Below are positions 5,169 through 63,949 of a stretch of DNA of 64,000 nucleotides, one piece after another (the stretch's first letter is position 1; each line of letters opens with the position of its first letter). Below the pieces are notes generated by a model. It was not told the origin of the DNA. It saw only the letters and a list, made by a program, of their open reading frames with translations, and did not search any database. The stretch comes from an uncultured Flavobacteriaceae bacterium. GTDB taxonomy: Bacteria > Bacteroidota > Bacteroidia > Flavobacteriales > Flavobacteriaceae. The translations under genes were made by a program, and so were the position numbers. The stretch lies in assembly GCA_947488345.1 (NCBI GenBank), contig CANKZQ010000003.1, positions 451,832 to 515,831 of the forward strand, given 5' to 3'.

Positions 5169-5570
5169 TTATGATCGCTTTTGTTTTTTCTCTTTTAACA
5201 AGGAATAGAGTATCGATTGGAAAAATGAAAGCAATAAACTAAAAAGTAACGCATATAAAAATCCGGAAACGGCAAAGCCATCTATTAATTTATCAGCTAA
5301 CATAATTATCATGGCATTGATTACAAATAAAAACAAACCCAAGGTGAGTATGGTTATGGGTAAGGTAAATAAAATAATCAACGGACGTACAAAAATTCGC
5401 AGCAACCCTAGGACAATCGCAACCACAATGGCTGAAGTGTAACCATTTACATGGATACCTGGTAATATTTCGGCAAGTATAACTACAGCTATCGCCGTAA
5501 GTAACATTTTTAATATAATTTTCATAATACTGATATTCATCGATTCAATTTCAACAGAACCGATATTCAA
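5169..5570 (-). CDS. Phage-holin-family / DUF360-like small membrane protein (start may be internal)
   Basis: Small protein with several TM segments: ILPGIHVNGYTSAIVVAIVLGLLRIFVRPLIILFTLPITILTLGLFLFVINAMIIMLADKLIDGF. Confidence 0.75.
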   Translation of the reverse strand: MNIGSVEIESMNISIMKIILKMLLTAIAVVILAEILPGIHVNGYTSAIVVAIVLGLLRIFVRPLIILFTLPITILTLGLFLFVINAMIIMLADKLIDGFAVSGFLYALLFSLLLSFFQSILYSLLKEKKQKRS

Positions 5571-5602
5571 AGATATGAACGTCTACAATTATGCCAAAAA
5601 AG

Positions 5603-46301: not shown

Positions 46302-47426
46302 ATGGAAAAATCAATCACCTTAAAAAACCTATTAATTAAGCAGCAAAAATGCATCGGCTTATTATTCAATGCTGATAAAGTCATAGATGCATTAGTCAAA
46401 GAACTACCAAATCCTATGTGGAGTAATGAATTTAAAATGCCTTATATATTAAATACTCAAGCAAATCAACAATTGATTTTTGATAAATTTAGAGGTGTAG
46501 CTTGGATAAATTGCAATTACTTTTTTCAGGATAGAGTATTGAACCATAACAATGAAGAAATTGATCTTAAATGGTTTGATAAAAGGCAAAAAAAGGAAAA
46601 TTTTAAGTCTTGTCCAGAGGAATATTTGCAAAAGCTAAAACTAAAAAAATACGCAAACAATACCGTTAGAAGTTATGTGTCTCGATTCGAAGATTTTATC
46701 AACTATTATAAAGACATCGAGCTGATTAAGCTTAATGAAAATGATATCAGGAAATATCTTCAAAAGTTAATTGACGAAGAACGTTCAAATTCCTATATAA
46801 ATGTAAGTATCAACGCTATTAAATTTTACTATGAAATGGTATTGGGTATGCCAAATAGATTCTATTCTATCGAGAGGCCAAGAAAAGAATTTAAACTTCC
46901 TAAAGTACTTTCTAAAGAAGAGGTGCTAGGCATTATTGAAAATACAAATAACATGAAACATCGCTGTATTGCCAGCCTTCTCTATTCTGCCGGACTTCGG
47001 AGAAACGAATTGTTAAATTTAAAACTAGAAGATATTGATAGTAAACGCATGTTAATTAACATTAAACAAGGTAAAGGCAATAAAGATCGTAATACGGTAC
47101 TTAACCAAAGTGTTCTTGAAGATTTGAGGAAATACTTTAGAGCTTACAGCCCAAAAGTATATCTTTTCGAAGGTAAAATTTCTGGCCAAAAGTATAGCCC
47201 CTCAAGTGTTTTACAAATTATCGTAAGAGCGGCCGAAAGAGCTGGGATTAAAGAAAGAGTTACGCCACACATGTTGAGACATAGTTTTGCTACACACTTA
47301 TTAGAAAATGGAACTGACTTGCGATATATTCAACTATTACTAGGACATAATTCAACTAAGACAACAGAAATCTACACACATGTTGCTTCGAATACATTTG
47401 CTGAGATAAAAGATTTATTATCTTAG
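46302..47426 (+). CDS. Tyrosine recombinase, Xer-like, candidate integrase of the cassette array
   Basis: R...HxxR...H...Y present: SAGLRRNELLNL, TPHMLRHSFATHLLENGTDLRYIQLLLGHNSTKTTEIYTHV. ORF track starts with TTG at 46269. About 57 aa between GKGNKDR and TPHMLRH, so no IntI-type insertion. Confidence 0.92.
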   Translation: MEKSITLKNLLIKQQKCIGLLFNADKVIDALVKELPNPMWSNEFKMPYILNTQANQQLIFDKFRGVAWINCNYFFQDRVLNHNNEEIDLKWFDKRQKKENFKSCPEEYLQKLKLKKYANNTVRSYVSRFEDFINYYKDIELIKLNENDIRKYLQKLIDEERSNSYINVSINAIKFYYEMVLGMPNRFYSIERPRKEFKLPKVLSKEEVLGIIENTNNMKHRCIASLLYSAGLRRNELLNLKLEDIDSKRMLINIKQGKGNKDRNTVLNQSVLEDLRKYFRAYSPKVYLFEGKISGQKYSPSSVLQIIVRAAERAGIKERVTPHMLRHSFATHLLENGTDLRYIQLLLGHNSTKTTEIYTHVASNTFAEIKDLLS

Positions 47427-47440
47427 TGCCATAATGGATA

Positions 47441-47476
47441 TATAGTTAATATTAACCATATTCCTACGTTGTATGC
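47441..47476 (+). other. attI-like primary recombination site
   Basis: 20-bp near-palindrome TATAGTTAATATTAACCATA (47441-47460), containing AACCATA as in the attC-like right arms, then TTCCTAC and crossover core GTTGTATGC (47468-47476), which starts cassette 1. Confidence 0.7.
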
Positions 47477-47500
47477 AATATGACCAAATTGTTATGATAA

Positions 47501-47974
47501 ATGAAAAAAACAAAACAATTAGCTAATCAATTTAGAGAAATAATCCTAAACGGAACTTGGATAGCAAACACCAATTATAAAGACCAATTAGAAAACTTAA
47601 GTTGGGAAGCTGCAACATCAAAGTTTGAGTCGCTTAATACCATTTCGGTACTAGCTCAACACGTCCATTACTATATTAACGGAATTAAAAATGTATTTAA
47701 TGGCGGAAATCTAGAAATAAGAGACAAATACAGTTTTGACTTTCCTGGAATAAAATCGCAAAACGAGTGGAAAGAATTCCTAATTAAATTTTGGGAAGAT
47801 GCGGAAAATCTAGCGGAATTGATTGAGCAATTACCCGACAAGAAATTAAACCAAAGCTTTGTGGATGATAAATATGGAACCTATCAAAGAAATATTGACG
47901 GAATAATTGAACATAGTTATTATCATCTCGGACAAATTGTATTGATAAAGAAGATTATTTTAAAGAATCATTAA
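47501..47974 (+). CDS. Cassette 1: DinB-like superfamily protein
   Basis: Four-helix DinB pattern: VLAQHVHYYINGIKNVFNGG ... GIIEHSYYHLGQIVLIKK. Confidence 0.7.
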   Translation: MKKTKQLANQFREIILNGTWIANTNYKDQLENLSWEAATSKFESLNTISVLAQHVHYYINGIKNVFNGGNLEIRDKYSFDFPGIKSQNEWKEFLIKFWEDAENLAELIEQLPDKKLNQSFVDDKYGTYQRNIDGIIEHSYYHLGQIVLIKKIILKNH

Positions 47975-47979
47975 ATACA

Positions 47980-48116
47980 GCATACAACAACGGCTATAAT
48001 TCATTGTGGCGGAATTTTCCACCGAAAATTCCTATCTTTCAATCATCGCTTGGTTCTCGCGGAATAGTCCTCGCGGACGATTCCACAACGAAACCATAGC
48101 CAAACCGTTGTAGGTA
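47980..48116 (+). repeat. attC-like site S1 (family A)
   Basis: R'' GCATACAAC (pairs with own cassette start GTTGTATGC), AAC, GGCTATAATT...AACCATAGCC, AAACC, R' GTTGTAGGTA. Confidence 0.9.
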
Positions 48117-48134
48117 ATTTGAAAACCAAGTTAA

Positions 48135-48911
48135 TTGAAAGAACATCGATATAAAATTCCTGGTCAAAATGGAGAATATGTGGTATTTGAAGCTGGAGAT
48201 TGCGAGAAAGTAAATCCCATAGAATATTATCAAAATATTTTCATTCCTCGCAACGTATCAATGTACCGCAGATTATATCTGGCAAAAGAACATAAGTTCA
48301 AACAGTTTGGTGCTAATTTGAGCATCATAAAACAAGAAGTTTTATTTCGGAAAAATGCGATTGCTGATTGGAAAAAATGGTTTCTTGAAAAATCAGCAAC
48401 TGAAATAAATCCTAATTATCTTGCTCTTTTAGAAAGTAAAACAAAAAACGAACAAAAAAAGCTACTTAAAGGAATTGAACTAACTACTTATGAACTATTT
48501 GCACTTATCGCAAAAGCTTATACCGATTATGGAATGTTGTTTTCCCAATATAGATATGAGCATACTCAAAAGGGAGTTGATGAAAAGGACTTAACAGAAT
48601 TTGCTCATCTTGAGGATAGCGGAAAAGTTATCACAATTAGAAAAACTAAACTATCTCAAGGACAACTTAAACAAGCGATTGAACACAGAGTTGTTTTGAT
48701 TGCAAAATTCATTGAAACGGAAGATGAATGGCATTGTTTTTTCACTAATTATAAAAGCTTAAATGGAAAAGAAATAACGTATAAAAGTGGAAAACCTCAT
48801 TATCATTACATTTCAGATAAATGGGGATTAACCAAAGAACAAGTGATAAAACAATTAAGTAGTAGAAGATATAAGCTACCATCAATGCCTCATTTGGACT
48901 TTAAAAGATAA
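48135..48911 (+). CDS. Cassette 2: hypothetical protein (TTG start)
   Basis: Intact 258-aa ORF filling the cassette. Confidence 0.7.
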   Translation: MKEHRYKIPGQNGEYVVFEAGDCEKVNPIEYYQNIFIPRNVSMYRRLYLAKEHKFKQFGANLSIIKQEVLFRKNAIADWKKWFLEKSATEINPNYLALLESKTKNEQKKLLKGIELTTYELFALIAKAYTDYGMLFSQYRYEHTQKGVDEKDLTEFAHLEDSGKVITIRKTKLSQGQLKQAIEHRVVLIAKFIETEDEWHCFFTNYKSLNGKEITYKSGKPHYHYISDKWGLTKEQVIKQLSSRRYKLPSMPHLDFKR

Positions 48912-48917
48912 AAAAAC

Positions 48918-49052
48918 TACCTACAACAACGTGTATAATTAATTACTACGGAATTCCTTCGCAGGAATTCGCTTGAATTAATTAACTTCGTCGTACGTCG
49001 GAAAATCCTAACGGATTTCCCGTAACTAACCATACACAAACCGTTGGCTGTA
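48918..49052 (+). repeat. attC-like site S2 (family B)
   Basis: R'' TACCTACAAC = revcomp of cassette 2 start GTTGTAGGTA; GTGTATAATTAATT...AACCATACAC; R' GTTGGCTGTA. Confidence 0.92.
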
Positions 49053-49154
49053 ATTTATAAGTCCGTTAACTAAGTCAAACTAATGTTTCACTCATTTCAC
49101 CTTTTTTAAAAGATTAATCGGAACTAGATTTGTGATGTTTTTAATGCACTGATT

Positions 49155-49652
49155 TTGAAAAAATATAGTATTCCGATTTTAGTTCTCTACATTTTTATTA
49201 CTTCTTGCTCGACCAATAAAGTAGTTGGAAAATATCAAACGAATTTTCCGACATACGGTAGATTTGGAAAAGTTCTGACCGTAAACTGTGACAGTACTTT
49301 TGTGCTGAATTTTAGCGGAGACTTTATGAATGACAATTCTTTCGGTAAATGGAAAGTGAGAAATGACTCTCTAATATTAAATTTTGACTCGATCAATTAT
49401 CCCAAAAGTAGATATAACGGAACAAGTTACTACTCAATAAAACGGAATAAACTGACCTCCTACTTTCCAATAACAAAAGAGAAATACAATGAATTAGTTG
49501 AACTAATTGAAAAAGAAGGAATGACGGATAGCCTTAAAATTGGAAATTATAGAAAATTTAGACGAACATCAGGAAAAACGTTAAAAAACTTCCAAGGAAA
49601 ATTGGGCAGACAATATTTCCAGAGAATAGAAAAATTTGAATGTAAACAATAA
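49155..49652 (+). CDS. Cassette 3: putative lipoprotein (TTG start)
   Basis: Lipobox FITSCST; intact ORF. Confidence 0.7.
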   Translation: MKKYSIPILVLYIFITSCSTNKVVGKYQTNFPTYGRFGKVLTVNCDSTFVLNFSGDFMNDNSFGKWKVRNDSLILNFDSINYPKSRYNGTSYYSIKRNKLTSYFPITKEKYNELVELIEKEGMTDSLKIGNYRKFRRTSGKTLKNFQGKLGRQYFQRIEKFECKQ

Positions 49653-49656
49653 AAAC

Positions 49657-49792
49657 TACAGCCAACAACGTGTATAATTAATTGCTGCGGAATTTCCTCG
49701 CAGGAAATTCACTTGAATTAATTAACTTGCCAATACGTTGGGAAAATCCTAACGGATTTCCCGCAACTAACCATACACAAACCGTTAGCAGC
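49657..49792 (+). repeat. attC-like site S3 (family B)
   Basis: R'' TACAGCCAAC pairs with GTTGGCTGTA at 49043; R' GTTAGCAGC. Confidence 0.92.
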
Positions 49793-49812
49793 AATATGAC
49801 GAAAAATTAAAA

Positions 49813-50505
49813 ATGGACTGGAGATTTAATACAATATGGTTCGAACAAATAAATCCTGAAGCAATTACTAACTGGGATTTTAAAGTGAAAAGGGAAGACA
49901 ACCTTAATTTTGAAAATATTCAATACGCAATACTTTGGTATTTTAAATATAAAGGAATTTCATTTGACCTTCTTCCTGAATCAAAGAGATTATTGTATTT
50001 GGAAATGAATTGGGCGAATTTTAAAGATTTAAATGGGATTGAGAAGTTCAAAAACCTTAAAAGACTAGAATTGCACTACTGTACTAAACTAGAAAATGAC
50101 TTTGGAATTTCTTCCTTAAAGAACACTCTTGAATTTTTACATATAAATCAGTCTAAAAAATTTCAACCCATGTTTGAATTTAATGAATTAAAAAACTTGA
50201 AAGTATTGCGGCTTAACTCTTGTGGAACTTTGGAAAATTTAGATTTTCTAAATCATTTCCCAAACTTAATCGACTTTCGATTTATCGATACAACAATATT
50301 AAACGGCGATCTAAACCCTATTTTAGAACACCCATCTATTCGTTCCGTCGGATTTAGCAATAAACGTCATTACAACTATAAAGATACTTATATTACAAAA
50401 GAATTGAATTTAAAAAGACCTGAGGAATTTAAAGAATATGTTCATAAAGGAGAATACTCTACGTTTAAATATAAAAATACAGCTGCTAACAACGTGTATA
50501 ATTAA
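49813..50505 (+). CDS. Cassette 4: leucine-rich-repeat-like protein ending inside the attC
   Basis: LKNLKRLELHYC, LKNLKVLRLNSCGTLENLDFLNHFPNLIDFRF; C-terminus AANNVYN* encoded by S4. Confidence 0.65.
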   Translation: MDWRFNTIWFEQINPEAITNWDFKVKREDNLNFENIQYAILWYFKYKGISFDLLPESKRLLYLEMNWANFKDLNGIEKFKNLKRLELHYCTKLENDFGISSLKNTLEFLHINQSKKFQPMFEFNELKNLKVLRLNSCGTLENLDFLNHFPNLIDFRFIDTTILNGDLNPILEHPSIRSVGFSNKRHYNYKDTYITKELNLKRPEEFKEYVHKGEYSTFKYKNTAANNVYN

Positions 50506-50614
50506 TTACTACGGAATTCCTTCTCAGGAATTCACTTGAATTAATTAACTTGTCAATACGTCGGAAAATCCTAACGGATTTCCCGTAACTAACCATACAC
50601 AAACCGTTACCTGC
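50482..50614 (+). repeat. attC-like site S4 (family B)
   Basis: R'' GCTGCTAAC pairs with GTTAGCAGC at 49784; R' GTTACCTGC. Confidence 0.92.
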
Positions 50615-50621
50615 AATAAGT

Positions 50622-51323
50622 ATGACCAATATTTCGGATTCAATTGGAAATTATGTTAATGATCAGAATCGCGAATTGTGGAATAACCTCAAGTCTAAAT
50701 ATCGATTCGAACTCTTTCATGATTCAAACGAATATTCTTGGAAAACACAAAGAGAAAATGGAGTTGTAATTATTGTCTGTCCGAATTTAGAAATTAGTTA
50801 TGCCTCTTTTACCCATGAATTACTTCATACCTATATTGAAGATAAAGGAATGACGGAATTTGAAACTTTTGAAGCTTCTTATAAGTATGATACTATTTTG
50901 GGAAATTTTGTGTTCTCTATGCTTTTCTCACGTTGTTATAATTTTTTTGCGCATAAAAAAATGTACCCTTATTTTAAACAAATGGGGTTTTCTGAATATG
51001 ATTTCGTATCAGATAGAATCAAATATTCGACTTTTCAGCACTTTAAGACGAAAATGTTATTCAGAATAAAAAAACTTCGAATTTTTGGTATAGAAACTTT
51101 TCTTGGAAATTTTTTCGAGCTTAAAAACAATGTTGTAAAAGAAGATATGGGAAAGTGTCAAAAAGGACTTGGAAAACTTAAAAAACTCCAACCAGAGCTA
51201 TATTCCATAGCGGACAGATTTGACAATATTTGGAAAGATCAAAAGGATTTGGACCTTCTTGTTCCATTTAATGATTTTAAGCATAACCTAATATTATGGC
51301 TTGGAAAAAATTACAGCAGGTAA
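50622..51323 (+). CDS. Cassette 5: protein with HExxH-type motif
   Basis: SYASFTHELLHTYIEDKGMTEFE; stop codon lies in R'' of S5. Confidence 0.65.
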   Translation: MTNISDSIGNYVNDQNRELWNNLKSKYRFELFHDSNEYSWKTQRENGVVIIVCPNLEISYASFTHELLHTYIEDKGMTEFETFEASYKYDTILGNFVFSMLFSRCYNFFAHKKMYPYFKQMGFSEYDFVSDRIKYSTFQHFKTKMLFRIKKLRIFGIETFLGNFFELKNNVVKEDMGKCQKGLGKLKKLQPELYSIADRFDNIWKDQKDLDLLVPFNDFKHNLILWLGKNYSR

Positions 51324-51450
51324 CAACGTGTATAATTAATTACTACGGAATTTCCTCGCAGGAAATTCACTTGAATTAATTAACTTGCCAATACGTTGGG
51401 AAAATCCTAACGGATTTCCCGCAACTAACCATACACGAACCGTTGGCAAC
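51316..51450 (+). repeat. attC-like site S5 (family B)
   Basis: R'' GCAGGTAAC pairs with GTTACCTGC at 50606; R' GTTGGCAAC. Confidence 0.92.
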
Positions 51451-51470
51451 AAGCTAAATACAATAATTAA

Positions 51471-51887
51471 ATGAAAAACATTCTTCTGATTTTATCATTG
51501 TTATTAATACTTGAATGTGACACGAAGAATGATGGAATCAAATATGGAACATTTGAATTGTATGAGAATGATAATATAGTTGGAACTATATATCGAATTA
51601 ATAATTATCAAATCGAAAAATATTTAGATGACTCTGAATTAATTGCTAGAATAGACTACAAAACTGACTCAACCTATTTGATGAGTGGTATAGAAGAAAC
51701 TCAAATTGGAATCGACTCAATTGTTTGGTTAACCACATATAGAGAAATTGATATAAATAAATATAAGCTTAAAGCAGTTCCGAATAACGTAAACATTAAT
51801 TATAAATATGATGCGACTCTTGTGAAAGTTGATAAAACTGTTCCCCTAAAGTATAGTGGAATATTGGACTCCCTGAATCGGAAATAA
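51471..51887 (+). CDS. Cassette 6: putative exported/lipoprotein
   Basis: N-terminal MKNILLILSLLLILECDTKN; intact ORF. Confidence 0.65.
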   Translation: MKNILLILSLLLILECDTKNDGIKYGTFELYENDNIVGTIYRINNYQIEKYLDDSELIARIDYKTDSTYLMSGIEETQIGIDSIVWLTTYREIDINKYKLKAVPNNVNINYKYDATLVKVDKTVPLKYSGILDSLNRK

Positions 51888-51894
51888 AAAGCCA

Positions 51895-52027
51895 GTTGCC
51901 AACAATGTGTATAATTAATTACTACGGAATTCCTTCGCAGGAATTCGCTTGAATTAATTAACTTGCCAGTACGTAGGAAAATCCTAACGGATTTCCCGCA
52001 ACTAACCATACACAAACCGTTGTACAC
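51895..52027 (+). repeat. attC-like site S6 (family B)
   Basis: R'' GTTGCCAAC pairs with GTTGGCAAC at 51442; R' GTTGTACAC. Confidence 0.92.
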
Positions 52028-52033
52028 AATTAG

Positions 52034-52540
52034 ATGAAAATTATAGATTTATACAGAATTGAAACCAAATCCTTTAAATCTAATTTGAAGAAAACGGAAA
52101 TAGAAAATAAACTCATAAATGAGTTTAACCTCAATCAGAACAGGGATTTTCGATCTATTTTTAAAAAAGAGTTAAATGAATATAGAGGCACATTAAATCG
52201 CAAAAGTTTTATAATCAAACAAAACAATGCGCTCACCTCAATTAATGACGGAAATTACTTTTTCTTTACTCGAATTAATGGAGAAATATTGGACAATGGA
52301 ACCGAACGGATTATAAAAATAAATGCAGAATTGAGTGAGGGTACTATTGGAATGGTTATTGCGTCTGCTCCAATTTATATACTAATTTTAATATTTAGCA
52401 ACTTATGGGTTGGAATTACCTCTCTCTTATTCCTGATTTTTCTTTATTTATATGGTGTAAGAAATGTAAAATCCGATTTTAAGGTCTTTGAAACACATTT
52501 AAAACAAAAAATAACTGTGTACAACAACGTGTATAATTAA
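52034..52540 (+). CDS. Cassette 7: membrane protein ending inside the attC
   Basis: Two TM segments; C-terminus ITVYNNVYN* encoded by S7. Confidence 0.65.
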   Translation: MKIIDLYRIETKSFKSNLKKTEIENKLINEFNLNQNRDFRSIFKKELNEYRGTLNRKSFIIKQNNALTSINDGNYFFFTRINGEILDNGTERIIKINAELSEGTIGMVIASAPIYILILIFSNLWVGITSLLFLIFLYLYGVRNVKSDFKVFETHLKQKITVYNNVYN

Positions 52541-52650
52541 TTACTACGGAATTCCTTCGCAGGAATTCACTTGAATTAATTAACTTCGTCTTACGTCGGA
52601 AAATCCTAACTGATTTTCCGCAACTAACCATACACAAACCGTTACCACAC
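52517..52650 (+). repeat. attC-like site S7 (family B)
   Basis: R'' GTGTACAAC pairs with GTTGTACAC at 52019; R' GTTACCACAC. Confidence 0.92.
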
Positions 52651-52659
52651 ATTTGTTCT

Positions 52660-53310
52660 ATGAAGCCTATGATTTACAAACCTGATATTCGAATAAATAA
52701 TCCGATCTATCTTTTGAAACAGGTAGAAGAATTATTGAAAATAGCAAATTCTCATAAAAATTCATCTTCTTTAATTTATGCAGCGTTGGAATGTAGAATA
52801 GCTCTTGAATTAATGGATTTGAATTTTCTATTACATTCAGTAACTGCAACAGAAAGAGAACAAATAATTATCGATTCCAAACCGTATAAAGGAATTGACA
52901 GAGTTAACAAGAAAGTTGGAGCTTTAAAACAAAAGTATCAATATTTTCTTCAAGCCGTTTGCGAATTGTTGGATGTCGGAATTGAACATTATGATTATAA
53001 AAAATCAAAAGATTTACAGTACGACGTTAGTACTTATATTCATTCGTATCATATGACAAATGAGGAATTGGAATATGAATCTGAAGATATGAAAAAATGT
53101 TATGATCTAATTTTGGAAGTGGACGGATTTATCAAATCCTCGATGCCAGAAAAAGACGGAACATATACAATGCTTGGAATGGAAATAGCATCAATGCCGG
53201 AAGAAGATAAACAAGTTTTGAATGAATGGAAAGTGTCGAACACGATGACTTATGAAGAAATGAAAGAAACTCTCTCTGAAAATATAAGATTACGAAGAGA
53301 AAAAAAATAA
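52660..53310 (+). CDS. Cassette 8: hypothetical protein
   Basis: Intact 216-aa helical ORF. Confidence 0.65.
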   Translation: MKPMIYKPDIRINNPIYLLKQVEELLKIANSHKNSSSLIYAALECRIALELMDLNFLLHSVTATEREQIIIDSKPYKGIDRVNKKVGALKQKYQYFLQAVCELLDVGIEHYDYKKSKDLQYDVSTYIHSYHMTNEELEYESEDMKKCYDLILEVDGFIKSSMPEKDGTYTMLGMEIASMPEEDKQVLNEWKVSNTMTYEEMKETLSENIRLRREKK

Positions 53311-53317
53311 TAAAAAC

Positions 53318-53451
53318 GTGTGGTAACAACGTGTATAATTAATTACTACGGAATTCCTTCGCAGGAATTCGCTTGAATTAATTAACTTCGTCCTACGTCG
53401 GAAAATCCTAACTGATTTTCCGTAACTAACCATACACAAACCGTTACCTGC
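53318..53451 (+). repeat. attC-like site S8 (family B)
   Basis: R'' GTGTGGTAAC pairs with GTTACCACAC at 52641; R' GTTACCTGC. Confidence 0.92.
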
Positions 53452-53461
53452 AAGCTGAAAA

Positions 53462-53782
53462 ATGATAATTGGATATTTTGACTACATAATTATTGGAATT
53501 TTATTACTCTTAAATATCAAATTCTGGAAAACAAAGTTTGAAGGAAAAACTGGTTGTTGGGTTGGTGGTATTTTATTCGGATTTATATTACCACTAATTT
53601 CATTGACAATAGAAGTTCAACGTGTAAAAATAACCATTGGAATTACGGACAGTTTCGAAGTTCTATATACGTATTTGAAGTTTCCTACTTACTGGATAAT
53701 CGGAATTGTTCAATCAATTATTACAGGAATCAAATTGAGCTATATGGAACCCCATTCTGATGAATCTGACGGAATTGAATAA
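53462..53782 (+). CDS. Cassette 9: small membrane protein
   Basis: 106 aa, hydrophobic segments. Confidence 0.6.
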   Translation: MIIGYFDYIIIGILLLLNIKFWKTKFEGKTGCWVGGILFGFILPLISLTIEVQRVKITIGITDSFEVLYTYLKFPTYWIIGIVQSIITGIKLSYMEPHSDESDGIE

Positions 53783-53794
53783 AAATAAAAGCCA

Positions 53795-53929
53795 GCAGGT
53801 AACAACGTGTATAATTAATTGCTTCGGAATTTCCTCGCAGGAAATTCACTTGAATTAATTAACTTCGTCGTACGTCGGAAAATCCTAACGGATTTCCCGC
53901 AACTAACCATACACAAACCGTTGTACTTC
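53795..53929 (+). repeat. attC-like site S9 (family B)
   Basis: R'' GCAGGTAAC pairs with GTTACCTGC at 53443; R' GTTGTACTTC. Confidence 0.92.
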
Positions 53930-53950
53930 ATTATAACCAACCGCTAACCA

Positions 53951-54751
53951 ATGATAAAATTCTTTCGGAAAATTCGTCAAAACTTACTTATGGAAAACAA
54001 AACTGGAAAGTATTTTAAATATGCTATTGGAGAAATTGTGCTAGTTGTTATTGGAATACTCATTGCTCTTCAAATTAATACTTGGAATCAAAATAGACAA
54101 GACCGTGAACAGGAACAGCAAATATTAATGCAGTTACTTAATGAATACGAGAACAATTTAATTCAAATAAATCAAAAAATATTCATCAGAAACGAAACTA
54201 TTTTATCTGCATACAAATTACTAAAATATAAAAATGATGAGACGCATAACATTGTTGCGGATAGTTTTAATTTACATTTAGGCAGATTAATTACACGACC
54301 TACATTCGATCCAGAACTTGGTGTGACCAAAGAACTTACTAGTTCAGGAAAATTATACCTCATTACTAATAATTCTTTAAGAAACAACATTACTTCTTTT
54401 CCTAGTTTTTTGGGTGAATTACGCGAAGAGGAAATGGTGACTTTTAATATGGCAGAAGAACGATTTACTCCATTTATTATGGAACATTATCAATTTGGGA
54501 AAATTATCGGAGAAATGTTCAATGACGAGCAAATTAAAAATCAAAATACCTTTGTAGTTGAAGAAGGTTACAATTCTGTTATCGATTTATTTCCCCAAGT
54601 TGATTTCAAACCCTTACTCCATCATACAGATTTTGAAGATTATTTAGCATTAATGATAAGTAATACTGGTTACACCAACGAACAATCTGAAGGTGTTAGA
54701 AACAAAATTGAAGAAATTATTTCACTAATAAACGGAGAATTAAAAAAATAA
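53951..54751 (+). CDS. Cassette 10: DUF6090-like membrane protein
   Basis: MIKFFRKIRQNLLMENKTGKYFKYAIGEIVLVVIGILIALQINTWNQNR. Confidence 0.8.
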   Translation: MIKFFRKIRQNLLMENKTGKYFKYAIGEIVLVVIGILIALQINTWNQNRQDREQEQQILMQLLNEYENNLIQINQKIFIRNETILSAYKLLKYKNDETHNIVADSFNLHLGRLITRPTFDPELGVTKELTSSGKLYLITNNSLRNNITSFPSFLGELREEEMVTFNMAEERFTPFIMEHYQFGKIIGEMFNDEQIKNQNTFVVEEGYNSVIDLFPQVDFKPLLHHTDFEDYLALMISNTGYTNEQSEGVRNKIEEIISLINGELKK

Positions 54752-54756
54752 CGAAA

Positions 54757-54891
54757 GCACAACAACGGCTATAATTCATTGTGGCGGAATTTTCTACTGA
54801 AAATTCCTACCTTTAAATCGTCGCTTGGTTCTCGCGGAATGGTCCTAGCGGACAATTCCACAACGAAACCATAGCCCAACCGTTACCACAC
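54757..54891 (+). repeat. attC-like site S10 (family A)
   Basis: R'' GCACAAC pairs imperfectly with GTTGTACTTC at 53920; R' GTTACCACAC. Confidence 0.85.
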
Positions 54892-54893
54892 AT

Positions 54894-55460
54894 TTGAAAC
54901 TTAGAAAAATTAGATATATAATAATAGTTGTTTTAGGGTATTTTTTACTCAAACCTGTTGTACCCATTGATGATTATTGCAGCGGCCTTGGTGCAGCGAT
55001 GAATTTTTTTTTCTTTGGTGCTTTAATCCTTTTTGTACTGCTCATCTTGACAATATTCGATGTTGTTGGAATGATAAAAAGTAAAGTTAAATTCGATTTT
55101 ATTCCTCTTTTAATAACCATGACTATCGGAATTATATATTTCTCAATTTTAGAACTGGACGATCGAAAATTTTGGACGAAAAGGACTTTGACTGGCCGGA
55201 TTGAGGTAGAAGCTACTCCAAAAAGTGGAGTACTTAAATTGTATAAAAACGGAACTTTTGCCGCGACTTTACATAATGCCGATAATAGTTGTACTTTTCA
55301 AGGTAAATATGCTATTCATGACAATAAGCTTGAACTAAAAAGGCTTGATTTATCTGATATGACTCAAAGAGTCTTTACAACTCAGTATTTTCTTGACAAG
55401 AACAACAAAACTCTTAATCCAATAGACAAAAGTTACGGAATAGTTGAAATAAGAAAATAA
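54894..55460 (+). CDS. Cassette 11: membrane protein (TTG start)
   Basis: Intact 188-aa ORF, several TM segments. Confidence 0.65.
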   Translation: MKLRKIRYIIIVVLGYFLLKPVVPIDDYCSGLGAAMNFFFFGALILFVLLILTIFDVVGMIKSKVKFDFIPLLITMTIGIIYFSILELDDRKFWTKRTLTGRIEVEATPKSGVLKLYKNGTFAATLHNADNSCTFQGKYAIHDNKLELKRLDLSDMTQRVFTTQYFLDKNNKTLNPIDKSYGIVEIRK

Positions 55461-55464
55461 AACA

Positions 55465-55601
55465 TGTGGTAACAACGGCTATAATTCATTGTGGCGGAAT
55501 TTTCCATGGAAAATCCCTACCTTTAAATTATCGCTTGGTTCTCGCGGAATGGTCCTAGCGGACAATTCCACAACGAAACCATAGCCCAACCGTTGGCATT
55601 A
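55465..55601 (+). repeat. attC-like site S11 (family A)
   Basis: R'' TGTGGTAAC pairs with GTTACCACA at 54882; R' GTTGGCATTA. Confidence 0.92.
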
Positions 55602-55714
55602 ATTCTAGAGCAGTCATAATTAAAACCGTTTCACTTAATGAAAAGGTTATTTCACTCAATTTGAGTTTTTTAAAATCAAATCTCCAACTATATTTAAAGG
55701 CAAATCACTTAGCA

Positions 55715-56383
55715 ATGAAAAAAAACATTCTCATATTCACTTTTTTTTTTACATCATTAGCTATTGCTCAAGACAAAAGTTTTGAATATCCAATTGAAAA
55801 AAATGGAGAGGAAAGTTACACTTTCCAATATTTCAAAAAACTCCTGACCGATATGGAATTGGATTCATTGAAAACCTCTGAAAATGAATTTCATTTTAGA
55901 TATCTTACTCCTCGGCATATTGCAGAAATTTGGAAAACTAAAAATGGAAAACTTAAAGGAAAACTTATAAGTTTCGTTGAAAGACAACCAGATTCGATGG
56001 ACTCAAAATACTTGAATAATAAAACTAAGAAGGAATATTTTATTCAAGTAAGACAAATGAATAATAAAAATGTAAATCAGATATATAAAAAATTATCCTT
56101 ATGGAAAATTGATGAAATTGAATCATCGACAATGCCTGAAGGTGGAAATTCTAATATCAGCGGAGTATTAGCGGAATTTTCTGGCAAAAGATCTTATAAA
56201 TTTAAGGAGTTTTGGATTCCCAATGATCAAGAAAAACAAAGTAACTCTGATAAAAAGATCGCTGAATTTACTAAATTAATGAATTCGCTTATAGATTATG
56301 ATAAACTATATAAAAATTTGATTGACAATTTGCCTAAGGGATGTTTCAATATGGTAAATGGATTTGTGGAATGTAATAACTAA
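55715..56383 (+). CDS. Cassette 12: exported protein
   Basis: MKKNILIFTFFFTSLAIAQDKSFEYP signal peptide; ORF track starts earlier at 55661. Confidence 0.7.
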   Translation: MKKNILIFTFFFTSLAIAQDKSFEYPIEKNGEESYTFQYFKKLLTDMELDSLKTSENEFHFRYLTPRHIAEIWKTKNGKLKGKLISFVERQPDSMDSKYLNNKTKKEYFIQVRQMNNKNVNQIYKKLSLWKIDEIESSTMPEGGNSNISGVLAEFSGKRSYKFKEFWIPNDQEKQSNSDKKIAEFTKLMNSLIDYDKLYKNLIDNLPKGCFNMVNGFVECNN

Positions 56384-56520
56384 TGCCAACAACGGCTATA
56401 ATTCATTGCGGCGGAATTTCCTAAACGGAAATTCTTATCTTGCAATGATGGCTTGGTTCTCTCGGAATAGTCCATGCGGACAATTCCCCAACGAAACCAT
56501 AGCCCAACCGTTGGCGTTAA
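56381..56520 (+). repeat. attC-like site S12 (family A)
   Basis: R'' TAATGCCAAC pairs with GTTGGCATTA at 55592; R' GTTGGCGTTAA. Confidence 0.92.
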
Positions 56521-56527
56521 TTTAAGA

Positions 56528-56941
56528 ATGAAGAACTTAATAATATATTTCTTACTCATTTTTACACTTTTGAGTTGTAAGCAAAAAGTTGTTGATGGAA
56601 TTGAAATTGGACATACGCTTTACACAAATCAAACATTAAAACAGAATACTAAGCTGATTAAACTTATCTCTCAAACGCTGAATAAAGAATCAAACGCATT
56701 ATCTGATCTAACTGAATTTTGGTGCGGTGGTGGGGCTGGATGTTATGATCTTGGAATAATTACGTCTGAAATAGTTTACAATATGGGCGAATCGGAATTT
56801 ATCAAAATTGCAAGGGAATTAGAATCTGATCGAAAAAATTCTCTATTTGGATTATTAAACGTCGGACTAGAATATGGCTATGAACATGAAAGAAAAATTG
56901 AAACGGAATTTCCTAATCTGAACGAATTGCTAACTGAATAA
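56528..56941 (+). CDS. Cassette 13: putative lipoprotein
   Basis: MKNLIIYFLLIFTLLSCKQKV lipobox; the ORF track extension MRTIPQRNHSPTVG is attC-encoded. Confidence 0.7.
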   Translation: MKNLIIYFLLIFTLLSCKQKVVDGIEIGHTLYTNQTLKQNTKLIKLISQTLNKESNALSDLTEFWCGGGAGCYDLGIITSEIVYNMGESEFIKIARELESDRKNSLFGLLNVGLEYGYEHERKIETEFPNLNELLTE

Positions 56942-56947
56942 AAAAAC

Positions 56948-57084
56948 TAACGCCAACAACGGCTATAATTCATTGCGGCGGAATTTCCAAAACGGAAATT
57001 CTTATCTTGCAATGATGGCTAGTGTTTCTCGGAATGTCCTAGCGGACAATTCCACAACGAAACCATAGCCCAACCGTTATGTGC
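56948..57084 (+). repeat. attC-like site S13 (family A)
   Basis: R'' TAACGCCAAC pairs with GTTGGCGTTA at 56510; R' GTTATGTGC. Confidence 0.92.
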
Positions 57085-57110
57085 AATTTGAAAACAATCC
57101 TCAATAAATA

Positions 57111-58877
57111 ATGACCGAAAAAGAGATAATCACTATATCCACAACTTTAATAAAGCCAGTACTTGATGTTTTTGTTAAACCAAAATTGATTAAGCTCAAA
57201 ACTATATTGCTTGAGAAAAATCAAGAGAATAAGGTTATTCATTTTGATATAACTGATAGTGAATTCGAAAAATACTTAAATCGCAATTTTAACAAAATTG
57301 TTTATTTAAATACTCTAGTTTTTCCTAACCAACAAATAAACCTATTAGAATTATATCATCCTTTAACTTTAAATAAAGACTTTTTAATAAAAAAGGTACA
57401 AAGAAAGAATCTAAAAGTTCAGGATGAGTCATTATTAGATAAAGAAATTGAGGACAAAACGGAGAAGTTCCTTATAGATGATAAAATAAATTTAAATTTT
57501 ATTGAGTCACATAGAAGATTATTGATTAGAGACAGGGCTGGAATGGGTAAGTCTACTATGATGAAATACCTAAATTTTCAAGTATTAGCAAAAGAAATTG
57601 GAATCCCAATATTCATTGAATTAAGGAGATTAAGCGATAAAAATGATATACTGAATGAAATACTTTCGCTAATAAATGGTGATAGCTGTTCTTTTAATAA
57701 AATATTTATATCTAAACTTTTAGAATTAGGAGAGTTTGTTTTCTTTCTAGATGGATTTGATGAAATTAAATCTGAATCTAAAGAAACAATAACCAATAAC
57801 ATACAAAGATTCATCGCTGAAAATGAAAACAATATCTTTATAATATCTTCTCGCCCAGAGGATTCATTATACTCATTTGGTAATTTTCAACTCTTTAGTA
57901 TAGAACCATTAACAAAGCCAGATTATGAAAATCTATTAAGAAAGTATGATTTTATTGGCGGTTCTTCAATCGCAGATAAAATTATCAATGATTTAAAAAC
58001 CAGTAATAAGGAAATTCAAAATTTCCTTGGTAATCCATTCCTAGTATCATTATTATATCGTTCCTATAATTTTAATAACCATATACCAAGTAAAAGGTCT
58101 ACTTTTTACGATGAATTATATATGGCTTTATTTAAATCGCACGACCTATCGAAAAATGCTTTTAAGAGGCCGAAATTATCAGACCTAGATGTTTTAGATT
58201 TTAGGCTTATACTAAGAGATTTTGCTTTTCACTCTTCATTAAATGGAGAGATTGAATATACTTATAGCGACTTATCATCATACATTACACAAGCGAAAGA
58301 GCGAATAGATAATCTTACATTTAAAACATCTCACTACATTGAGGATTTAGAAACTAATGTTCCTCTTCTTGTGAAAGAAGGAGTCAATTATAGATGGTCT
58401 CACAAATCAATCCAAGATTTTTTTACAGCAGAATTTATAGATAGTGACACTAATAAAGTTGAAATTTTAGAGACTATTTTTGAATCTTTTGATTCTAATT
58501 TTTTAAATATTTTATACTTCTATTTTGAGCTAGATTATAAAACATTTAAGAATGTAATCATCAAAAATGTAGTACAATTATTGGTTGATGGTTTTCAAAA
58601 TACTAATCATATGGTCAATGAATACGACGAAACTAATTTAAGAATATGGCAATTTGCTCAAAACTCACGAACACTGACTCAAATTACTGGTATTATAGAG
58701 CTTCTTATTGAAAAAGAAGTTTTTTATAACTTAGTTAAGGTGAATCCTATTTATAATTTGAGTTTAAAAGAATTTCCAAGAATAGAAAATTGCAGACAAA
58801 TCTTAGAAGAAATTGATAATCAAAAAAGTAAACGATTTAAAATTAAAGAATTAATTAAAAAAAGAAAAAGCACATAA
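57111..58877 (+). CDS. Cassette 14: NACHT-type NTPase
   Basis: Walker A LLIRDRAGMGKSTMMKYL; Walker B FVFFLDGFDEIKSE; IFIISSRPEDSLYSF; RWSHKSIQDFFTAEF. Confidence 0.85.
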   Translation: MTEKEIITISTTLIKPVLDVFVKPKLIKLKTILLEKNQENKVIHFDITDSEFEKYLNRNFNKIVYLNTLVFPNQQINLLELYHPLTLNKDFLIKKVQRKNLKVQDESLLDKEIEDKTEKFLIDDKINLNFIESHRRLLIRDRAGMGKSTMMKYLNFQVLAKEIGIPIFIELRRLSDKNDILNEILSLINGDSCSFNKIFISKLLELGEFVFFLDGFDEIKSESKETITNNIQRFIAENENNIFIISSRPEDSLYSFGNFQLFSIEPLTKPDYENLLRKYDFIGGSSIADKIINDLKTSNKEIQNFLGNPFLVSLLYRSYNFNNHIPSKRSTFYDELYMALFKSHDLSKNAFKRPKLSDLDVLDFRLILRDFAFHSSLNGEIEYTYSDLSSYITQAKERIDNLTFKTSHYIEDLETNVPLLVKEGVNYRWSHKSIQDFFTAEFIDSDTNKVEILETIFESFDSNFLNILYFYFELDYKTFKNVIIKNVVQLLVDGFQNTNHMVNEYDETNLRIWQFAQNSRTLTQITGIIELLIEKEVFYNLVKVNPIYNLSLKEFPRIENCRQILEEIDNQKSKRFKIKELIKKRKST

Positions 58878-59007
58878 CACCGTGTATAATTAATTGCTTG
58901 ATGGTGTTTAAAGAGTGTCACGGAAATCCTGGCGGATTTCCTTACTCCTACGCTTTTTTGTTATCTTAGTCGCTTACGCAACTAACCATACACAAACCGT
59001 TAGGCAC
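58870..59007 (+). repeat. attC-like site S14 (family B arms, divergent centre)
   Basis: R'' GCACATAAC pairs with GTTATGTGC at 57076; arms GTGTATAATTAATTGCTT...CGCAACTAACCATACAC; R' GTTAGGCAC. Confidence 0.88.
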
Positions 59008-59022
59008 AATATTAGAACCTTA

Positions 59023-59781
59023 ATGAAAAAGCATAAATTCAAAACAAATGAAAGATACGCTGTATGGTTGCATCATGAAAAACGATGCTGGTTATGTAAA
59101 GATCCTTTGAGATTGGCAGAATCCACTGTCGATCATGTAATTTCCGAATCCGTATTATCTGATGGTGAACTTTTTAAAAGTATTCGCGAAAATTATGGGC
59201 TGGATAAAGAGTTTGAAATTAATGGTTTTGAAAACTGGCTTCCTAGTCATCAACGTTGTAATCAGTTAAAGTCGAATAAAGCTTTGAAATACACACCCGG
59301 ATTTCAATTAATTCTCGAACGACTAATTAAACTTGCTCCTAAGGTTAAACGGACTTCAGAACTAATTCTTGAAGGAATTCAAAAAGACAAATTAATGGTC
59401 AAAATTGTGGCGGCTATTGAAGAAGGCCAAATAACTGCAGAAGAACTAAATATGTTTATCAAAAGAATTTTAGGCACCACAGAGTCGGAAAACATGAATA
59501 TGATCCGTCTTGATAACGGCTATTGGTTACATATTGATGACATTGCAGCGGAAGGCTTATGTCAATGTGAAAGAGAGCTTTGTGTTGACAGTGATAAAAG
59601 GAATTACTGTTATTGGAGTAGTTCTAAATCAGGGTGGATAATTCGAAAACAGCTTTTCTGGAAATGTTATGAGGAAATTATAAAGTGTTCGAGATGTGGC
59701 GAAAACCATAAGCGTGGTGAAATCGGATATCTCAATACTTGCAAAAGACCATTCTCGGATCAAATGTCTCAATCAGATTAA
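59023..59781 (+). CDS. Cassette 15: HNH endonuclease-like protein
   Basis: CWLCKDPLRLAESTVDHVISES...ENWLPSHQRCNQLKSNK; ORF track start 58915 lies in the attC. Confidence 0.8.
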   Translation: MKKHKFKTNERYAVWLHHEKRCWLCKDPLRLAESTVDHVISESVLSDGELFKSIRENYGLDKEFEINGFENWLPSHQRCNQLKSNKALKYTPGFQLILERLIKLAPKVKRTSELILEGIQKDKLMVKIVAAIEEGQITAEELNMFIKRILGTTESENMNMIRLDNGYWLHIDDIAAEGLCQCERELCVDSDKRNYCYWSSSKSGWIIRKQLFWKCYEEIIKCSRCGENHKRGEIGYLNTCKRPFSDQMSQSD

Positions 59782-59808
59782 AGGTTTGATCTTCTTTTAT
59801 AAAATACA

Positions 59809-59947
59809 GTGCCTAACAACGGCTATAATTCATTGCGGCGGAATTTCCTAAACGGAAATTCTTATCTTGCAATGATGGCTTGGTTCTCTCGGAATGGTCC
59901 TAGCGGACAATTCCACAACGAAACCATAGCCCAACCGTTGTAAGTAA
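59809..59947 (+). repeat. attC-like site S15 (family A)
   Basis: R'' GTGCCTAAC pairs with GTTAGGCAC at 58999; R' GTTGTAAGTAA. Confidence 0.92.
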
Positions 59948-59956
59948 TTTAAAAAA

Positions 59957-60460
59957 ATGAAGTTAAAATTTATATTAGGAGTTGTTTTCTGTATAATTCT
60001 ATCAAATCTGTCAGCCCAAGTTTCGGACTCAATAAATCAGAAAATTATAGGAAAGTGGAATTATATAAAAACAATTGATAAAGAAAATAATTCTGTTGAG
60101 TACATTATTCGTAAATATCCAGGCGGAACTGAAATGAAAATTAAAACTAACGGTCCAAAAATTATAATAAATAAGAATGGGACATATAGTAAACAATTCA
60201 CTGAAGAAAATATTGATACTGGAAATTGGAAAATGAAATCGGAAAATGAAATTGAGTATGAAATGGTTATTCCTAAAAATTCTCGACAAGGAAAATTAAT
60301 TGCAGCGACACAAAAAAGCATCAATAAGAAGTGGAGGACAGACAAAAATGGAAATTTTCTTGATGCTTCAACAAATACGATTCTTTCTTTATCCAAATCT
60401 GAAATGACTATTGAATATGAAAAAGATTACGTCATGATTTTTAAAAGAGAAGCTCAATAA
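59957..60460 (+). CDS. Cassette 16: exported protein, lipocalin-like
   Basis: Signal peptide; IIGKWNYIKTIDKENNSVEYI. Confidence 0.65.
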   Translation: MKLKFILGVVFCIILSNLSAQVSDSINQKIIGKWNYIKTIDKENNSVEYIIRKYPGGTEMKIKTNGPKIIINKNGTYSKQFTEENIDTGNWKMKSENEIEYEMVIPKNSRQGKLIAATQKSINKKWRTDKNGNFLDASTNTILSLSKSEMTIEYEKDYVMIFKREAQ

Positions 60461-60464
60461 AAAC

Positions 60465-60601
60465 TACTTACAACAACGGCTATAATTCATTGTGGCGGAA
60501 TTTTCCTTCGGAAATTCCTACCTTTAAATAATCGCTTGGTTCTCGCGGAATGGTCCTAGCGGACAATTCCACAACGAAACCATAGCCCAACCGTTGTAGC
60601 C
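60465..60601 (+). repeat. attC-like site S16 (family A)
   Basis: R'' TACTTACAAC pairs with GTTGTAAGTA at 59937; R' GTTGTAGCC. Confidence 0.92.
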
Positions 60602-60615
60602 AATTTGAAAATGTT

Positions 60616-61080
60616 ATGAAAAAAATATTAATTCTAATTTGTTTGCTCTCTATAACTTCAAAAAGTGAAGGACAAAAGTCGAACCCAAAGATGGTCGAAA
60701 TCAAGAATCAATTAGTGCCTGAAGCCGTTGAAATAGGAAAAAACTATGGATTAACATTAAATTTTACTGATAAGTCTATTAAAAGTGTTGAAATAATATT
60801 GGATGACATTCATAAGGAATATAAAAAATCGAAAAATGACGAAGGACTTACTGGACTCGCTTATATTTTCGGATTTTATATTATTGAGACTATTGAAAGA
60901 AATCACGGAAAGGGAAGAATGGAACAAGATGACCCAGAAATTGGAAAGAACTCGTTCCCTTTTTACTGGAATAATTCAACCTTGTTTCCCATTGCTTGGT
61001 GTCAGAAACGGATTTTTGATGGAGAGGCTGATGACGTCTCATTTAAATACCAAGTTGCAGTACTACAAAAGAAAAAATAA
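60616..61080 (+). CDS. Cassette 17: exported protein
   Basis: Signal-peptide-like MKKILILICLLSITSKSEGQ; intact ORF. Confidence 0.65.
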   Translation: MKKILILICLLSITSKSEGQKSNPKMVEIKNQLVPEAVEIGKNYGLTLNFTDKSIKSVEIILDDIHKEYKKSKNDEGLTGLAYIFGFYIIETIERNHGKGRMEQDDPEIGKNSFPFYWNNSTLFPIAWCQKRIFDGEADDVSFKYQVAVLQKKK

Positions 61081-61084
61081 AAAC

Positions 61085-61222
61085 TGGCTACAACAAAGGC
61101 TATAATTCATTGTGGCGGAATTTTCCATGGAAAATCCCTACCTTTCAATCATCGCTTGGTTCTCGCGGAATGGTCCTAGCGGACAATTCCACAACGAAAC
61201 CATAGCCAAACCGTTACAAACC
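61085..61222 (+). repeat. attC-like site S17 (family A)
   Basis: R'' TGGCTACAAC pairs with GTTGTAGCCA at 60593; R' GTTACAAACC. Confidence 0.92.
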
Positions 61223-61651
61223 ATTTCGCTCAAAAAATTCCATGAAGTTTAAAATTGTAAAATCTGATATTTCAAGAAGTTAATTCCTTTTCGGATATAT
61301 TTGAATCTATCAATCTGTATACTAAATAGAAAGGACTCACCATTATAAATAAAATTATCAAAACTGGGCTTGTAAGGGCTAGGAATACATGAATTTTTTT
61401 CATAGGTCTTACGTTAAGTTAATATGTAGCAAAGTTGGTGTATTTTTTGGCCTATAAAAACATGTAGATTATCCTATTTGTGGTTTATATTGCCATAAAT
61501 AAAGATCAAAATGCTTTTCAAAAAAATAGAATAAAAGAAATTGGTATGGAAATATCGGAATTGAATAACGGAACGCAATTGTCACGCAAGCAACGACCCA
61601 ACGGAATTGACAATCGGAACATGAAAAATGGGATAAAATAAGATAAAAAAC
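61214..61651. other. Cassette 18: no convincing ORF (non-coding or decayed cassette)
   Basis: Only very short + frames (MKFKIVKSDISRS*; MEISELNNG...GIK*); bounded by intact S17 and S18. Confidence 0.7.
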
Positions 61652-61789
61652 GGTTTGTAACAACGGCTATAATTCATTGCGGCGGAATTTCCTACTCGGA
61701 AATTCTTATCTTGCAATGATGGCTAGTGTTTCTCGGAATGTCCTAGCGGACAATTCCACAACGAAACCATAGCCCAACCGTTGTAACAC
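61652..61789 (+). repeat. attC-like site S18 (family A)
   Basis: R'' GGTTTGTAAC pairs with GTTACAAACC at 61213; R' GTTGTAACAC. Confidence 0.92.
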
Positions 61790-61794
61790 ATTAA

Positions 61795-62037
61795 ATGAAC
61801 GTAATAAAAGACTTCAAAAACGGATTTATATATGTTATAGAAAAATACCCTATAATTTCTGGAATCGGATTTTTAATTATTGGGGGAATTCTATTAGCTT
61901 ATAAGTTGAATAAAAAGGAATCGCTCAAAGAGGCGTGGAATGGAATTCTTTCTTGGAATGCGTTTATTAGCATTTGGGCGGTAATCTTAATGTCTTTTAT
62001 TTTCGGTCTAATTCTTTTGACGAAAAATATGTTTTGA
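61795..62037 (+). CDS. Cassette 19: small membrane protein
   Basis: 80 aa with two hydrophobic segments. Confidence 0.6.
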   Translation: MNVIKDFKNGFIYVIEKYPIISGIGFLIIGGILLAYKLNKKESLKEAWNGILSWNAFISIWAVILMSFIFGLILLTKNMF

Positions 62038-62066
62038 ATCGTTAAAGATTATTAATATGCTAAAAC

Positions 62067-62204
62067 GTGTTACAACAACGGCTATAATTCATTGCGGCGG
62101 AATTTTCTACGGAAAATCCCTACCTTTAAATCATCGCTTGGTTCTCGCGGAATAGTCCTTGCGGACAATTCCACAACGAAACCATAGCCCAACCGTTGGC
62201 AATA
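62067..62204 (+). repeat. attC-like site S19 (family A)
   Basis: R'' GTGTTACAAC pairs with GTTGTAACAC at 61780; R' GTTGGCAATA. Confidence 0.92.
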
Positions 62205-62209
62205 ATTTA

Positions 62210-62989
62210 ATGAAAAAAATATTTTTACTTTCTGTTATCCTATTTTCTATATTTTCTTGTCAAAATAATTCTTTAAAAAAAGATTTTATAGGCAATTGGA
62301 GCACTTCCTCAGATGATCCAAATTATGATTTAAATATAGATGTTCAATTCTTTAATGATTCCATGGTGGTGGATAACTCATTATTTCTTGAAAATTATTC
62401 AACCAAATGGCAAGTCAAAGATTCAAAGATTGAAGGAACTATATTAAGAAGTACTAAATATTTTGAACAACCTAATTTTATAAGTGATTATAAATTCAGT
62501 TTTGAAAAAGATACTCTTTACATGAAACGTGCAAATGACTCAATGCCCTATATTAGATATTTAAAAATTAAAAATGGGTACAAATATTTCGAAAATAAAA
62601 TTGGTTTAAATATTAAACTTCCTAAAACAGATAAGGAATTAAAACAAAATCGGAATAGACAAAGAAGATTTAATATTTATGTAAGCTATAATGATGGCAA
62701 GCTAGTAGCAAAAAGCAGTAGTGATTTTCATAGAGCAAATAATCTAGATAAAATAACGTCGCAGGCTTTTGCTTTTTGGGCCCACCAAGGTCGAGATCCA
62801 GATTATAATAATTTTCAATTCAATTTATTCACCGATAAAAGTATTGATGAATTTAAGATTGATTCCGTAAAAAATTTACTGAAATCGGGTCCTTTTAAAA
62901 GAATTTTTCGCGTTTATACAAATGAAAAACATAATTATGAAAAAACAGCCTGGAAAGATAAAATAAAATGGTTTGGTTTATATGAATAA
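62210..62989 (+). CDS. Cassette 20: putative lipoprotein
   Basis: MKKIFLLSVILFSIFSCQNN lipobox; ORF track start 62159 is attC-derived. Confidence 0.7.
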   Translation: MKKIFLLSVILFSIFSCQNNSLKKDFIGNWSTSSDDPNYDLNIDVQFFNDSMVVDNSLFLENYSTKWQVKDSKIEGTILRSTKYFEQPNFISDYKFSFEKDTLYMKRANDSMPYIRYLKIKNGYKYFENKIGLNIKLPKTDKELKQNRNRQRRFNIYVSYNDGKLVAKSSSDFHRANNLDKITSQAFAFWAHQGRDPDYNNFQFNLFTDKSIDEFKIDSVKNLLKSGPFKRIFRVYTNEKHNYEKTAWKDKIKWFGLYE

Positions 62990-62992
62990 AAC

Positions 62993-63130
62993 TATTGCCA
63001 ACAACGGCTATAATTCATTGCGGCGGAATTTCCTAAACGGAAATTCTTATCTTGCAATGAAGGCGTGGTCTCTCGGAATAGTCCTCGCGGACGATTCCGC
63101 AACGAAACCATAGCCCAACCGTTAGGTGCA
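62993..63130 (+). repeat. attC-like site S20 (family A)
   Basis: R'' TATTGCCAAC pairs with GTTGGCAATA at 62195; R' GTTAGGTGCA. Confidence 0.92.
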
Positions 63131-63142
63131 ATAATACTCAAC

Positions 63143-63838: not shown

Positions 63839-63949
63839 TTGCTGGGGAATTTCCTCACCGGAAATTCGCTTGAATTAATTAACTTGCTCGTACAGCGGAA
63901 AATCGTAACGGATTTTCCGCAACTAACCATACACAAACCGTTGTGTTTA
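63814..63949 (+). repeat. attC-like site S21 (family B)
   Basis: R'' TGCACCTAAC pairs with GTTAGGTGCA at 63121; R' GTTGTGTTTA begins cassette 22, which is cut by the window edge. Confidence 0.9.

Follow-up and report, generated by a model that had tools for sequence, protein, structure and literature searches.

An integron-like cassette system with a candidate attI beside a tyrosine recombinase that lacks the IntI additional domain

The recombinase gene, the adjoining palindrome and the cassette array

The stretch of 64,000 nucleotides analysed here, referred to as the window, encodes a tyrosine recombinase of 374 residues on the forward strand (46302-47426). Its start was placed at an ATG that is conserved in the orthologues, an upstream TTG at position 46269 also being possible. 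The stop codon of the recombinase gene ends at 47426 and is followed by an intergenic gap of exactly 41 bp (47427-47467) and by a GTT triplet (47468-47470, forward strand). Within this gap lies the 20-bp near-palindrome TATAGTTAATATTAACCATA (47441-47460), which contains the heptamer AACCATA and is symmetric except for a single mismatched pair; one further pair extends it to a dyad with the arms ATATAGTTAAT and ATTAACCATAT (47440-47461, no strand assigned). The palindrome leads into the 7-nt spacer TTCCTAC (47461-47467, forward strand), in place of which relatives mostly carry ACAATT or CCAATT before the G, and then into GTTGTATGC, which starts at 47468. A sequence-only reading of the window had described the 20-bp near-palindrome with its heptamer, the spacer, the sequence after it and a gap of about 41 bp, and all of these were confirmed. 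According to a first-order Markov model, 0.006 near-palindromes of 20 bp with at most one mismatch are expected in the 74 nt between the stop codon and the first cassette ORF, so the palindrome in this position is not a chance feature; in the 64-kb window as a whole, 10 are present compared with about 5 expected. Even with up to three mismatches allowed, a 35-mer that includes the site has a single occurrence in the genome.

The GTT triplet is common to this site and to every attC, and coincides with the cassette boundaries. Cutting the array at each GTT delimits 21 complete cassettes of 415-1923 bp (47468-63939, forward strand), and the array continues beyond the window, whose end coincides with that of the contig. 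The first cassette (47468-48106, forward strand) starts with the above-mentioned GTTGTATGC and comprises an ORF (47501-47974) with a weak match to DUF1572 as well as an attC (47980-48106, forward strand) that is built from R'' (GCATACAAC, 47980-47988), L'' (CTATAATT) and L' (AACCATAG); the GTT of the next cassette is located at 48107. As noted previously and verified by a pattern check, AACCATA is separated from GTTR by 8 nt at 21/21 array sites, compared with 7 nt at the site beside the recombinase gene.

In 20 of the 21 cassettes, the two terminal stretches of 9-10 nt are reverse complements of each other, only cassette 10 being imperfect. Of the 147 mirrored positions in all cassettes together, 137 agree (maximum of 88 in 20,000 permutations), and the ends of neighbouring cassettes do not match one another. 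Owing to these mirrored ends, a circularized cassette can form a hairpin attC, in which R'' and R' are brought together. The circular-form attC has a consensus fold consisting of an R stem, an internal loop of 3/5 nt and an L stem of 6 bp (GGCTAT/ATAGCC or GTGTAT/ATACAC). Between R'' and the crossover the sites measure 118-123 nt. The bottom strand folds more stably than the top strand at all 21 sites, which, being homologous, do not provide 21 independent tests.

A pattern search of the genome detected at least 84 exact attC 3' ends (46 forward and 38 reverse; 0 in the control). They are found on both sides of contig C3 (720-18985 and 499923-515774) as well as on C6, C7, C10, C11 and C12, and since many of them are situated at contig ends, they point to a very large cassette collection that was broken by the assembly. 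As the assembly contains only a single integrase of this clade, there may be a second copy that was collapsed. A 588-residue protein with a NACHT domain (PF05729, 30.1 bits; cut-off 26.7) is encoded by cassette 14 (1923 bp) at window positions 57111-58877; PADLOC returned no match for it. The imperfect mirrored end of cassette 10 (53920-54881) reads GTTGTACTTC versus GAAAGCACAAC, and this cassette may possibly have been fused with a different attC.

A tyrosine recombinase without the I2 domain

The recombinase is composed of an N-terminal beta/alpha domain (about 75 residues), a SAM-like core-binding domain and a catalytic domain that matches PF00589 (E 6.5e-41). Its best NCBIfam model is the XerA-like NF040815 (224.7 bits; cut-off 220), whereas the integron-integrase model TIGR02249 scores 193.8 bits, below its cut-off of 265, and aligns in two separate pieces. 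For the predicted structure (mean pLDDT 82.6), Foldseek nevertheless returns the integron integrase of Vibrio cholerae (2a3v) as the best match. The alignment to this enzyme, VchIntIA (2A3V), breaks over chain residues 181-240, and the spacing between the KDR and HxLRH motifs is 58-59 residues, compared with 100 in canonical IntI of other Bacteroidota. Near patch III, IntI enzymes possess a specific additional domain (I2) of about 42 residues. It is absent from the recombinase, from all aligned members of its clade and from a wider I2-less group of Bacteroidota, but is present in nine canonical IntI from other Bacteroidota. Because the recombinase lacks this domain, we do not class the locus as a canonical integron but as an integron that is operated by a recombinase other than IntI. 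In the phylogenetic tree the clade is nested in the larger I2-less Bacteroidota group (support 96/89) and the canonical IntI stand apart (100/100); the two Xer sequences included form long branches, which leaves the root of this tree unsure.

A search of the genome for a canonical IntI elsewhere returned only the recombinase itself and three distant Xer/integrase-like matches. No canonical IntI was identified in the source genome (G000) or in any listed genome of its family; in the phylum, 57 of 198 Bacteroidota genomes contain one above the curated cut-off.

Conservation of the dyad and exchange of first cassettes

Orthologues of the recombinase occur across the Flavobacteriaceae and in a few other Bacteroidota (55-97% identity, alignment A1), and in almost every case the palindrome, the spacer and GTT are located directly 3' of the stop codon, amounting to about 80 loci in the Flavobacteriaceae. 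A palindrome score of at least 7 is reached by 78% of 86 loci but by 3.7% of shuffles, and the distance from the dyad centre to the G of GTT is 15.5-18 nt in nearly all loci, with a mode of 17. In the 40 distinct orthologous sites whose centre is 17 nt away, which together provide 440 paired cells, pairing is kept in 87.7% of the cells and both sides of a pair have changed in 89 cells, compared with 32.5 in shuffles. The score for covariation reaches 0.496 as opposed to 0.129+/-0.018 for shuffled sites, none of 500 shuffles being as high, and it falls to 0.14 or less once the partner is slid. In each arm the outer TA is invariant and the middle triplet varies with compensation; the arm sequence thus differs between species, while its symmetry is retained. 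On the other side of the site, GTT is invariant in all 40 aligned sequences, and the bases beyond change with the cassette, whereas the dyad beside the crossover covaries strongly. Comparison of these loci shows, at the level of sequence, that the dyad is under selection, and the covariation gives good reason to propose that the recombinase may bind it in pairs.

AACCATA is found in just 2 of the 86 sites, and a congener whose recombinase is 97% identical has AATCATA instead. The dyad and not the heptamer is therefore the conserved element; AACCATA was rejected as a conserved arm of attI, and the relatives lend no general support to the earlier proposal of an attC-type arm in the site.

Tandem double dyads are present in loci of Winogradskyella, Mariniflexile, Maribacter and Gelidibacter (L076, L082, L085 and L090; also L068, L070, L071, L080, L101 and L111), with their centres 38-39 bp apart where measured and the crossover adjoining the second dyad. 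In a second, more distant clade of I2-less recombinases (L018, L019, L020, L025 and L028), TATATAACNA or a similar sequence directly precedes GTT 3' of the gene, and there is no clear dyad, indicating that not every relative needs one. First cassettes with mirrored ends are visible in L020 and L028, the one in L028 being similar to cassette 10 of the window.

Sufficient downstream sequence for the analysis of first cassettes was available for 66 loci. In 57 of them the exact 9-mer after GTT is mirrored downstream as its reverse complement (2.4% in controls), and at 53 of these 57 an attC-like motif comes next; an exact mirror is absent in the other 9. In nine groups of loci, the 26-nt site is identical but the first cassettes differ. 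Likewise, two copies of recombinase and site in a single genome (L036 and L037) have the site in common and different cassettes attached to it. The sequence-only reading had taken the site for the primary insertion site and had suggested looking in relatives for different first cassettes abutting it. As such cassettes were found, unrelated in sequence and starting at the same GTT, this assignment is well supported, and comparison of the loci shows that cassettes start at the GTT of the putative attI. For the reading of the site as attI in an integron-like cassette system, we estimate a probability of about 0.88.

Covarying dyads are also left behind by dimeric repressors, and the dyad might thus be an operator or promoter element, for example for a repressor of cassette or recombinase expression, with only the short GTT-proximal part acting in recombination. 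The second dyad 38-39 bp upstream in some loci would suit such a function, as would the distant I2-less clade, which seems to manage without a clear dyad. Promoters of Bacteroidota differ from the sigma-70 consensus. Yet the distance to GTT is nearly fixed (15.5-18 nt) despite differing cassettes and promoters, and the arm sequence shifts between species while the symmetry stays, so we regard a purely regulatory role as unlikely. Located directly after the stop codon, the palindrome could in principle also fold as RNA and act as a transcription terminator or hairpin at the 3' end of this gene. This candidate was rejected and retains very little credence: the sequence lacks a T-run and receives no terminator call, its RNA folding is on a par with shuffles (z -0.10), G-U pairs are few among the covarying cells, and a terminator would have no reason to hold a distance of 17 nt to GTT.

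Two further readings concern the enzyme instead of the dyad. The XerA-like family score of the recombinase would agree with a scenario in which XerC/XerD of the host act on a remnant array and its boundary, with the neighbouring recombinase as an unrelated passenger, but this protein shares at most 35% identity with the Xer proteins of the host, a site of this kind with cassettes lies 3' of the recombinase in about 80 genomes, and the cassette sites are asymmetric hairpins of about 120 nt and not 28-bp dif sites, rendering this scenario hardly plausible. In the same vein, the pairs of 28-bp dif-like sites that flank XerCD/dif modules are not seen here, the sites measuring 118-123 nt. A canonical integron whose IntI has merely diverged would account for the two-piece match to TIGR02249, for the Foldseek result and for the array logic, which is identical. 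Considering that the additional domain is missing throughout the clade and the wider I2-less group while all nine canonical IntI possess it, and that the latter form a separate group in the tree, we judge this explanation rather improbable.

Proposed mechanism, related systems and resistance genes

With the site acting as attI, two recombinase protomers would bind the dyad as double-stranded DNA, and the right half-site together with the GTT side would form the core of strand exchange, the partner being a hairpin-folded attC. A circular cassette would in this way be inserted at the GTT beside the recombinase gene. Specificity for the individual recombinase may be set by the triplet that covaries in each arm, whereas attC might be recognized mainly via its structure and GTT, presumably reacting as the folded bottom strand with exchange within the GTT. 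Since GTT is present in all sites, the comparison gives no cut position within the triplet; by analogy with integrons, cleavage would fall between the G and the TT. Assays of binding and insertion could use the covarying dyad directly as a substrate.

Like chromosomal integrons (VchIntIA/attI/attC of Vibrio cholerae; class 1 IntI1/attI1), the locus has a recombinase gene that adjoins the primary site, here a putative attI, and a long array of mostly unknown single-ORF cassettes. It also shares with them GTT at every boundary and mirrored ends that supply the R and L stems of attC in the circular cassette, the bottom-strand hairpin being the more stable one, so that the tandem cassettes display the R''/R' and L''/L' complementarity typical of canonical integrons. 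In contrast to these systems, the recombinase has no I2 domain and its gene is co-directional with the cassettes, with its 3' end adjoining attI. The attI1 site consists of a core site and direct repeats, whereas attI here is a covarying dyad. XerA and the archaeal and bacterial Xer proteins acting at dif are related to the recombinase through its best NCBIfam match, NF040815, and the two-half-site dyad of some relatives presumably resembles dif in size. Exchange is, however, proposed to occur beside the dyad at GTT and not in its centre, the partner sites are hairpins of about 120 nt, and the proposed role is cassette capture instead of dimer resolution. In archaeal integrons (PMC9668308), attI is likewise located immediately 3' of the integrase gene and cassette arrays are present, but the archaeal IntIs are reported to contain the additional domain that is missing here.

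This additional domain has been regarded as defining IntI (PMC9668308), and the gain of the I2 helix has been treated as the innovation that allowed integron integrases to recombine single strands, intermediates being lacking (PMC7790495). A large I2-less group with full cassette arrays makes the origin of single-strand recombination testable. In Bacteroidetes proper, IntegronFinder 2.0 reported only a complete integron of Salinibacter (PMC9024848); tools tuned to IntI would probably miss arrays of the kind described here. The literature searched, which did not reach most subscription journals and preprints, yielded no description of I2-less integrons in Flavobacteriaceae or of tet(X) as a cassette of such an integron. 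The integron-like system is widespread in marine flavobacteria, and resistance genes of clinical importance, tet(X) among them, were apparently moved by its relatives. By a narrow preference, we view these loci as a distinct and widespread integron lineage of the Bacteroidota that never had or has lost I2 and that uses a dyad as attI. Its members would either recombine hairpin attC sites without I2 or block second-strand exchange in another way, and tet(X), aadS and ere(D) would have been captured by it as cassettes before reaching Bacteroides and Acinetobacter.

On Acinetobacter plasmids, a recombinase of the I2-less group that is 53% identical over residues 143-373 is encoded upstream of tet(X3)/tet(X5) (L176:4046-4910, NZ_CP044520; L177:3046-3960, FJ012881). 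As in the window, an I2-less recombinase gene is followed by a dyad (TATACGCCATTTGGCGTATA; 9/11 pairs, centre 17 nt from GTT), 7 nt, GTT and a gene, tet(X) starting right after the triplet. The Acinetobacter module differs in that its recombinase ORF spans only 222 residues and begins inside the core domain, and in that tet(X3)/tet(X5) have lost the mirrored cassette end. Judged by its sequence, the xerD-tet(X) module resembles an attI that has been captured, tet(X) being its first cassette. The adjacency of xerD and tet(X) has been published without any integron being reported, and a study that saw no integron near tet(X14) asked whether XerD mobilizes tet(X) (PMC7473080); for this unexplained arrangement the tet(X) link puts a concrete mechanism on offer. 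The similarity of the Acinetobacter loci to tet(X2) of Bacteroides, Myroides and Empedobacter starts exactly at that GTT. The tet(X2) unit begins with GTTATGTGCC and ends with GGCACATAAC, followed by a hairpin site, and the sequence beyond differs in Empedobacter. On Bacteroidota plasmids, tet(X2), aadS and ere(D) have 10-bp mirrored ends of the cassette type and a hairpin attC-like site (L179:2338-3248 and 4999-6210; L180:4001-5210; L181:157-1365); such ends appear in 1.9% of random control windows, a figure inflated by real cassettes. The ere(D) gene lies on the minus strand of L179, and aadS and ere(D) are carried together by a Bacteroides plasmid.
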